Source of the DNA: Candidatus Rokuibacteriota bacterium
GTDB taxonomy: Bacteria > Methylomirabilota > Methylomirabilia > Rokubacteriales > JACPHL01
Direction of reading: 5' to 3'
Assembly: GCA_016188625.1 (NCBI GenBank)
Contig: JACPHL010000014.1
Span: 1 to 13,550 of the forward strand
Length of the DNA: 13,550 nt
Position 1 is the stretch's first letter; every line of letters starts with the position of its first letter. The notes below the pieces were generated by a model, which was given only the letters and a program-made list of their open reading frames with translations, did not search any database and had not been told where the DNA came from. The position numbers and the translations under genes were made by a program. Positions 8,061 to 13,239 of this stretch are shown here, one piece after another.

Positions 8061-9344
8061 ATGAAGGGTCCGCGGGCAGGCGAGAGGGTCACCCTCGAGG
8101 AGGCCATCGGCCGGCTCCGTCCCGGGATGCGGGTCCTCCTCCCCCCGGCCTGCGCCGAGCCGCGCGCCCTGATCGGGGAGCTCTGCCGCCAGGCGGAGCG
8201 GCTGCGCGGTCTCACCCTCATGGGCGGCCTGCTCCTCTCCGACTACCCCTTCTGCCGGGAGGCGTACCGGGGGATCTTCCGCTGGGTGACCTGGCACATC
8301 ATGCCGCCGCTCCGGGAGCCGCTCCAGGCCGGCCAGGTGGAGTTCGTCCCCGCCCGCTACTTCGACACCCTGCGGGTCTTCGGCCGCGGCGGGCCCTGGG
8401 CCGCCGACGCCTGCCTTCTCCAGACCTCCCCGCCGGACGCCCGCGGCTGGGTGAGCCTCGGGGTCTCGGTGAGCTACCCGCTGCCCATCGCCCGCGGGGT
8501 CCCCCTGGTCATCGCCGAGGTCAACCCCAGGATGCCGCGGACCCTCGGGGAGTCGTGCCTCCACCTCTCCGAGCTCGACTGCTGGGTCGAGGTCGAGCAC
8601 CCCCTGGTGGAGTACCCGCCTCCCGCGGTCGGGGAGGTGGAGCGCGGGATCGCCGCCCACGTGGCCGAGCTGGTCCCTGACGGCGCCACGATCCAGGTCG
8701 GGATCGGCGCCATCCCGCAGGCGATCCTGGAGGCGCTGTCGGGGAAGCGGGATCTCGGGGTCCACTCCCTGCTCGTGGACACGATGCTCCCGCTCATCGA
8801 GCGGGGGGTGATCACCAACGCGCGCAAGAGCCGGAACCCGGGGCGGATGGACCTGGGGGAGATCATGGGGACCGAGGCCCTCTTCCGCTTCGCCCACGAC
8901 AACCCCATGGTCAACATGGAGCCCTCCTCGGCGATCCACAACCCCATGGTCGTCGCCGGGATCGAGCGCTTCGTCTCCATCAACTCGGCCCTGGAGGTGG
9001 ACCTGACCGGGCAGGTGAACGCCGAGTCCCTGGACGGCGTCCAGGTGGGCGGGATCGGCGGGCAGTTCGACTTCGTGGAGGGGGCCTCCTGGGCCGGGGG
9101 CGGGCGCTCCATCATCGCGCTCCCCTCGACGGCCCGGGGCGGGGAGGTCTCCCGGATCGTGCCGCGCCTGGGCGCGGGGGCGGCCGTGACGATCCCCCGC
9201 CACCTGACCGACTGCGTGGCGACCGAGTACGGGGTCGCCGAGCTCAGGGGGCGGAGCGTCGAGGAGCGCGCGCGGGCGCTGATCGGGATCGCGCATCCGC
9301 GCCATCGCGAGGCGCTCGAACGCCAGCTCCGCATGGCCCGCTGA
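8061..9344 (+). CDS. Acetyl-CoA hydrolase / 4-hydroxybutyrate-type CoA transferase
   Basis: Members of this family move CoA between acetyl-CoA (or another acyl-CoA) and a carboxylate, or hydrolyse acetyl-CoA; they are cytosolic. The 427-aa protein has both expected halves. The N-terminal half includes DACLLQTSPPDARGWVSLGV and VIAEVNPRMPRTLGES. The C-terminal half includes VQVGIGAIPQAILEAL, LIERGVITNARKS, INSALEVDLTGQVNAES and GVQVGGIGGQFDFVEGA. The glutamate that forms the thioester intermediate in 4-hydroxybutyrate CoA transferase (about residue 238, in an HTEM-like motif) aligns with Leu237 in VHSLLVDTML (CTG at 8769-8771). The substrate cannot be named. ATG 8061 comes 20 bases after cinA with only weak purine-rich sequence upstream, so it probably shares the cinA transcript. 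It is followed by the large hairpin at 9349-9425. Confidence 0.88.
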   Translation: MKGPRAGERVTLEEAIGRLRPGMRVLLPPACAEPRALIGELCRQAERLRGLTLMGGLLLSDYPFCREAYRGIFRWVTWHIMPPLREPLQAGQVEFVPARYFDTLRVFGRGGPWAADACLLQTSPPDARGWVSLGVSVSYPLPIARGVPLVIAEVNPRMPRTLGESCLHLSELDCWVEVEHPLVEYPPPAVGEVERGIAAHVAELVPDGATIQVGIGAIPQAILEALSGKRDLGVHSLLVDTMLPLIERGVITNARKSRNPGRMDLGEIMGTEALFRFAHDNPMVNMEPSSAIHNPMVVAGIERFVSINSALEVDLTGQVNAESLDGVQVGGIGGQFDFVEGASWAGGGRSIIALPSTARGGEVSRIVPRLGAGAAVTIPRHLTDCVATEYGVAELRGRSVEERARALIGIAHPRHREALERQLRMAR

Positions 9345-9348
9345 GTAG

Positions 9349-9443
9349 GTGGTGAGGCTCCGCCGGGGGTTCCCGGCGAGCCCGTTGAGCGGGCCGGAAC
9401 CTCCGGCGGACCGCCTCCTCACCACACCAAAGTCGGCGGAGCC
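9349..9443. repeat. Large imperfect hairpin with an alternative pairing partner
   Basis: GTGGTGAGG (9349-9357) pairs with CCTCACCAC (9417-9425). Inside it, 9359-9373 pairs with 9396-9410 over 15 positions with a single G-T, and a small CCCG/CGGG stem (9381-9384/9390-9393) can form at the top. GGCTCCGCCG (9356-9365) is also perfectly complementary to CGGCGGAGCC (9434-9443), which competes with the main helix. It sits after the CoA-transferase stop and has no T-run, so it is not a canonical terminator on the plus strand. It may protect the mRNA 3' end or be a copy of a palindromic repeat family. Confidence 0.55.
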
Positions 9444-9445
9444 AT

Positions 9446-9471
9446 AAAAAAGGCCCGCCGGAAGGCGGGCC
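9446..9471 (-). terminator. Intrinsic terminator of the selenoprotein gene
   Basis: On the minus strand a perfect 8-bp stem GGCCCGCC/GGCGGGCC (9471-9464/9459-9452) with a TTCC loop is followed directly by TTTTTT (9451-9446). It lies about 20 bases after the stop codon at 9490-9492 and works for minus-strand transcription only. Confidence 0.9.
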
Positions 9472-9489
9472 GGGGTGGCTGGCGGAAGC

Positions 9490-9720
9490 TCAGGCCTTCC
9501 GGGCCTGGCGGACCTTGGCGAAGATCTCCTCGTTCGTCGGGAAGCGCCCGGTCTTGTGCTTGGAGTAGACCAGCGAGCCATCCAGCTCCACGTCGAAGAC
9601 CCCGCCGTGCCCCGCCTTCAGCTCAGCGCTGAGCGCGAACTCCTTCTTGATCGCGGCCTCGAGACCGGAGGCCTGGGGGAGGTAGTCTCATTCCGCGCAG
9701 TAGGTGATCCGGACCCGCAT
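9490..9720 (-). CDS. SelT/SelW/SelH (Rdx) family selenoprotein with in-frame UGA
   Basis: Read through one in-frame TGA (9688-9690), this gene gives a 76-aa thioredoxin-like Rdx protein. It begins MRVRITYCAEU, placing selenocysteine at residue 11 in a CxxU redox motif followed by DYLPQAS, and continues with GHGGVFDVELDGSLVYSKHK and TGRFPTNEEI, the signature of bacterial SelW-like proteins. The family is thought to act as small thiol/selenol oxidoreductases; the substrate is unknown. Evidence for a real gene is unusually complete: a strong promoter (9754-9782), AAGGAGG five bases before the ATG (9726-9732), a SECIS-like hairpin after the UGA, and an intrinsic terminator (9446-9471). Treating the TGA as a stop would leave only ten codons, so ordinary gene calling misses it. 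It is transcribed alone, convergent with the CoA transferase and divergent from the histidine kinase. No selA, selB, selC or selD is in the window. Confidence 0.93.
9655..9690 (-). promoter_or_regulatory. Bacterial SECIS-like element with its UGA codon
   Basis: In the transcript the UGA (9690-9688) is followed after 14 nt by a perfect 6-bp stem GGCCUC/GAGGCC (9673-9668/9660-9655) closing a loop CGGUCUC. The loop contains GGUCU, the same apical sequence as the E. coli fdhF SECIS bound by SelB. GGUCU begins 21 nt after the UGA here and about 18 nt after it in fdhF. The hairpin lies inside the coding sequence, as bacterial SECIS elements do. Confidence 0.8.
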
Positions 9721-9753
9721 GCGAGCCTCCTTGGGCTGGTTGCTCGGCCCTTC

Positions 9754-9782
9754 ATGATACCGGCCGCGCCCTCGGCTGTCAA
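9754..9782 (-). promoter_or_regulatory. Strong sigma-70 promoter of the selenoprotein gene
   Basis: On the minus strand TTGACA (9777-9782) is followed after exactly 17 bases by TATCAT (9754-9759), 11 of 12 consensus positions. A start near 9747 gives a leader of about 27 nt that contains the AAGGAGG ribosome-binding site. It is the best promoter match in the window. Confidence 0.8.
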
Positions 9783-9798
9783 ACGACGGCGGCCCGCG

Positions 9799-9827
9799 TT
9801 GTCCCGGCTCGCCCCTCCTGGTATGCT
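9799..9827 (+). promoter_or_regulatory. Candidate promoter of the histidine kinase operon
   Basis: TTGTCC (9799-9804), 17 bases, then TATGCT (9822-9827). A start near 9833-9834 falls only a few bases before the ATG at 9837, so the transcript would be almost leaderless unless another promoter is used. Confidence 0.5.
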
Positions 9828-9836
9828 AGGGGCGGC

Positions 9837-13239
<3,403 letters not shown>

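Follow-up and report, generated by a model that had tools for sequence, protein, structure and literature searches.

A predicted SelW-like selenoprotein gene behind an in-frame UGA in an apparently empty interval of a Rokubacteriales genome

Does an interval that looks empty under the standard genetic code hold a gene once a stop codon is read as selenocysteine? This question is raised by positions 9344-9837 of the 13,550-nucleotide stretch of Candidatus Rokuibacteriota DNA that we analysed (the window), which seem empty and are flanked by two plus-strand genes, one for an acetyl-CoA hydrolase and one for a PAS/GAF histidine kinase. On the minus strand, a frame opening with the ATG at 9720-9718 reaches a TGA at codon 11 (9688-9690) and, beyond it, meets no further stop for 65 codons until a second TGA (9492-9490). 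If the first TGA stands for selenocysteine (Sec), the coding sequence runs from 9720 to 9490 (minus strand) and specifies a SelW-like protein of 76 amino acids, MRVRITYCAEUDYLPQASGLEAAIKKEFALSAELKAGHGGVFDVELDGSLVYSKHKTGRFPTNEEIFAKVRQARKA. Almost certainly, the frame is a real gene with its own transcription, and its product is a small selenoprotein of the Rdx (SelT/SelW/SelH) family. The earlier note on this DNA had arrived at the same reading from the letters, and it is upheld here by Rdx homology across the UGA, the Sec machinery of the host, conservation of the TGA and covariation in a hairpin downstream of it. The interval is thus only seemingly empty: ordinary gene callers shorten or pass over selenoprotein genes of this kind, and standard callers, which are blind to a recoded stop, would be expected to overlook the one found here.

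The signals that the same note had listed around the frame are all present. A ribosome-binding site AAGGAGG (9726-9732, minus strand) ends 5 nt before the ATG, and further upstream lies a sigma-70-type promoter-like site, TTGACA-17-TATCAT (9754-9782, minus strand), with 11 of 12 matches, for which 0 occurrences were expected in shuffled sequences. On the 3' side of the gene, an 8-bp GC stem followed by a run of six T residues forms an intrinsic terminator (9446-9471, minus strand). A search against Rfam gave no match at gathering score, and the weak matches near the terminator were dismissed, being sRNA models at chance level. The convergent neighbour is an acetyl-CoA hydrolase/transferase gene (8061-9344, plus strand, start approximate; Pfam PF13336/PF02550) with conserved synteny: in the comparison of the window with 27 loci of the host's order, which includes Ca. 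Rokubacteria, the SelW-like gene adjoins an acetyl-CoA hydrolase homologue in convergent orientation. Elsewhere in the window, a sigma-54 response regulator gene (11930-13239, plus strand) appears to be frameshifted near 13000, where the frame of the AAA domain is lost and the C-terminal HTH lies in a different one; this is perhaps an assembly error at a C homopolymer.

The translated product was then assigned to a family. Pfam Rdx (PF10262) matched it over nearly its full length (E=4.6e-19, 68.8 bits against a cut-off of 22.6), and TIGR02174 was passed with 58.7 bits against a cut-off of 34.2. The top-scoring NCBIfam model was NF041051 SelTWH_Campy, which describes a SelT/SelW/SelH family (seleno)protein and was matched over the full length (E=2.7e-24), its score of 85.2 bits lying just below the curated cut-off of 88 bits. 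Searched against the genome DNA, the family profile finds the locus unaided, with one TGA within the match. AlphaFold2, supplied with 20 orthologues, returned a model with a pLDDT of 94.9 and the order strand-[CxxU]-helix-three strands-helix, in which the motif C8-A-E-U11 sits between beta 1 (strand 3-8) and alpha 1 (helix 14-28). The claim of a full Rdx-fold protein behind the in-frame UGA is therefore backed by both sequence models and the predicted structure. The top Foldseek matches were the SelW-related structures 2fa8, 2obk, 2ojl, 2oka, 3dex and 2p0g (TM about 0.9, rmsd 1.0-1.5), which share the fold over nearly the full length, have longer chains, are 21-36% identical to the window protein in the Foldseek alignments and are described as Cys homologues. 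Behind these bacterial structures came MIEN1 and mouse SelW (2npb), in agreement with the profile search; mouse SelW has fold and family in common with the window protein at 25% identity.

Codon 11 is followed by a putative bacterial SECIS hairpin, GGCCUC-[CGGUCUC]-GAGGCC (9673-9655, minus strand), with a 6-bp stem (9673-9668/9660-9655) and a 7-nt loop that contains GGUCU (9666-9662). The eukaryotic SECIS is located in the 3'-UTR, whereas that of the window gene would lie inside the coding region. The fdhF SECIS of E. coli likewise has GGUCU in its apical loop at a short distance from the UGA, while its stem sequence presumably differs. The bSECIS model in use asks for a loop of 3-9 nt, a stem of 4-16 bp, a G in the first two loop positions, a distance of 16-37 nt from the UGA and an MFE of at most -7.5 kcal/mol (PMC13188914). 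The window hairpin falls within all of these ranges, with a loop of 7 nt starting with CG, a stem of 6 bp, a distance of 20 nt between UGA and loop and -11.0 kcal/mol for the hairpin region. However, with a minimum stem of 4 bp and no energy term, the model accepts 200/267 TGAs of the window, and the stability of the hairpin is not unusual compared with shuffled sequence (z +0.58). Since about three quarters of the TGAs pass so permissive a rule and the stability is not significant, the hairpin alone proves nothing, and we rejected both the minimal rule and thermodynamic stability as evidence for a SECIS.

Covariation and codon choice were more informative. Across 67 sequences anchored at the UGA and drawn from several phyla, pairing over the six positions of the stem was 89%, 42 cells were changed on both sides of the stem against 11.9 expected in shuffles, and the covariation score was 0.302 compared with 0.104 after shuffling and at most 0.112 on sliding, the sequences being related so that these events, like the codon counts, are not independent. 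Compensatory changes affected three stem pairs, and some of them were synonymous, with the Ala codons GCC, GCG and GCT each matched on the other arm. The Ser codon in the loop was AGT in 61/61 sequences, while AGT accounted for only 16/238 Ser codons in the other parts of these genes and for 1.8% of Ser codons in the flanking genes of the order; the Gly codon in the loop was GGT in 19/20 cases versus 57/501 in the remainder of the genes. The covariation and the frozen codons are difficult to explain without selection on the hairpin RNA, and the family offers a clear natural case of a bacterial SECIS loop under nucleotide-level selection within a coding region. The hairpin proposed in the earlier note hence stands with its GGUCU loop, its distance, covariation and codon freezing, but it gains nothing from its stability.

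Conceivably, Sec insertion is real, but the hairpin reflects only the conservation of PQASGLEA in the protein and is not the SECIS. The minimal model is permissive, as seen above, and synonymous reshuffling, which the hairpin does not exceed, often yields equally good hairpins for most members of the order; the compensatory changes in three stem pairs, synonymous ones included, and the frozen AGT and GGT codons of the loop point the other way, and we consider this alternative improbable, though it is the one that fares best. In most members of the order, the stem contains a C.C mismatch, and a strict test for an uninterrupted stem was passed by only 69/91 sequences. In four sequences (L022, L034, L036 and L044; UGA plus 51 nt), an Ala-to-Glu change, GAG for GCC, falls in the 3' arm; there the pairing moves by one codon and a 7-bp stem with an 8-nt loop is retained.

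A Sec-decoding host, which the earlier note had taken the gene to imply, was indeed found. The host genome comprises 2.6 Mb in 344 contigs and is 84% complete, the window being contig C41. A second contig, C273, holds tRNA-Sec, selA and selB together: the tRNA scored 75.7 bits and was called by ARAGORN as tRNA-SeC with the anticodon TCA (UCA), selA scored 600 bits, and selB scored 381 bits, over its cut-off, and has GTP-EFTU, SelB beta-barrel, SelB-wing_2 and wing_3 domains, thus including the winged-helix domains of the SelB type. The gene selD was found over cut-off on a third contig, C179 (L016, 1347-2366, minus strand), with its own in-frame TGA in the motif LSHGAGUACKLG, by which the selenophosphate synthetase of the host is itself predicted to be a selenoprotein. 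The contigs with the Sec machinery have a GC content of 0.71-0.72, the same as the window. For host SelA, the identity is 75.6% with the G003 protein, 69-71% with those of the further order members compared and 55-56% with those of other class members, and G003 is also the order member with the closest SelW (68%). As both proteins are nearest to the same genome and the GC content of the contigs agrees, it is unlikely that the machinery stems from contamination of the bin. Weak tRNA-Sec matches in the host genome (G000) were set aside, since ordinary tRNAs also score and 14/14 control genomes match at E <= 0.001.

The host machinery also bears on the idea that a Trp or suppressor tRNA inserts a different amino acid at the UGA, or that readthrough occurs independently of a SECIS. 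Codes that assign UGA to Trp do occur in other lineages, but the residue aligned here is the Cys/Sec of CxxC/U and not Trp, UGA also terminates the SelW-like gene itself, the Sec system of the host is complete and the hairpin loop is kept at the nucleotide level; we therefore hold this to be very improbable, even more so than a hairpin without function.

Returning to the selenocysteine reading, we infer selenium insertion, expression, redox chemistry and substrate along the following lines. SelB-GTP carrying Sec-tRNA(Sec) would bind the hairpin just 3' of the UGA, selenocysteine would be delivered at codon 11, and the ribosome would add 65 further residues before the terminal stop. This would yield a one-domain thioredoxin-like protein of the order beta-[CxxU]-alpha-beta-beta-beta-alpha. 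Sec11 would attack a disulfide or peroxide as the oxidised substrate, and Cys8 (codon TGC, 9697-9699, minus strand), the presumed resolving partner within CxxU, would resolve it as a selenenylsulfide that cellular thiols may then reduce. Judging by the motif, the most likely role of the protein is that of a thiol/selenol oxidoreductase using a Sec11-Cys8 selenenylsulfide. The function of SelW-like proteins has been described as unclear, but as redox-related according to the CXXU motif, with an interaction with glutathione (PMC1088965).

Genome comparison showed how widely the gene is conserved. Among 60 genomes of the order, 52 had an Rdx match, which contained the TGA in 51/60, the remaining match being cut by a contig end. 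At the position of Sec11, the TGA occupied the same column in 33/33 SelW-like orthologues extracted and in 58 more, and Cys8 was invariant in alignment A1. The homologue check suggested in the earlier note thus revealed relatives without unrelated stops or decay and with a conserved downstream frame. Neither of the two outcomes that the note had named as refuting, a genome lacking selB/selC or decayed homologues, was encountered. Beyond the order, orthologues were present in 110/294 genomes of the phylum of a Planctomycetota record, with 7 matches without an internal stop, and in 41/297 genomes of the phylum of a record named Deltaproteobacteria, with 3 such matches. The near-universal TGA among orthologues agrees with the finding that Sec-using bacteria have very few or no Cys homologues of SelW-like proteins (PMC1794560). 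That a once functional Rdx gene became a pseudogene, or was misread, by a change of its Cys codon (TGC/TGT) to TGA would require a single base and might suit error-prone MAG sequence with a frameshift elsewhere in the window, but it is refuted by the conservation of the TGA along with the downstream protein, given the same TGA in the 51 order genomes and many of other phyla, the intact reading frame, RBS and terminator and the very few Cys versions in existence, and we assign it next to no probability.

Of the 51 order genomes carrying an Rdx gene with TGA, 47 had selA over cut-off. In the other four (G007, G021, G038 and G051), neither selA nor tRNA-Sec (selC) scored over cut-off, and G007 was scored 100% complete; if the Sec genes are clustered there as in the window genome, one unassembled stretch could hide them. 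Three Cys-containing Rdx matches (L019-L021) were excluded, since they form a subfamily of their own (YCTQC) and are not orthologues. In three SelW-like matches (L106, L109 and L111), the matched range held, in addition to the Sec TGA, a TAA or TAG that probably marks the end of the gene. In this little-known order, SelW-like proteins are widespread and almost all have the Sec form.

The window gene is known in kind. Bacterial SelW-like selenoproteins have been reported since at least 2005, when they were the most abundant selenoprotein family of the Sargasso Sea with 48 genes (PMC1088965). With these proteins (Rdx, PF10262; TIGR02174 CXXU_selWTH; PMC1088965) the window gene shares the CxxU after the first beta strand, the Rdx fold, the UGA with a downstream bSECIS and the length; the host lineage is the only difference, and we found none in kind. 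A 2026 review (PMC13188914) cites a MAG of the Methylomirabilota for which 63 selenoprotein genes were predicted, and our literature search found no paper describing a SelW-like gene in Rokubacteria. For a Sec-decoding bacterium, the gene itself is ordinary.

Two further Rdx selenoprotein families were observed in the order. One, with the pattern MxxEIKRCxxU-DLRREAVRL and one TGA, is distinct from the window gene (L054, L055, L057-L059, L063-L065 and L137-L149). The other, VEIVYCVVUGYLPVAVSVAAELSSIN, is near-identical across genomes (L060, L061, L062, L066 and L067). In four loci, the RCxxU paralogue has a TGA at both active-site positions, IRRU-x-x-U and hence UxxU (near base 1501 in L150, L151 and L153 and near base 1117 in L152). 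The genomes concerned (G003, G020, G055 and G015) belong to two families of the order, so that UxxU is not a single sequencing error. The 2026 review lists SELENOW-like proteins as CxxU only (PMC13188914). Whether the order thus possesses several paralogous Rdx selenoproteins (CxxU SelW-like, RCxxU and YCVVU), with the RCxxU paralogue of four genomes being a UxxU protein whose active site may be a diselenide and whose motif the 2026 catalogue does not give for this family, we regard as an evenly balanced call. These UxxU paralogues, which lie outside the window, are more unusual than the window gene.
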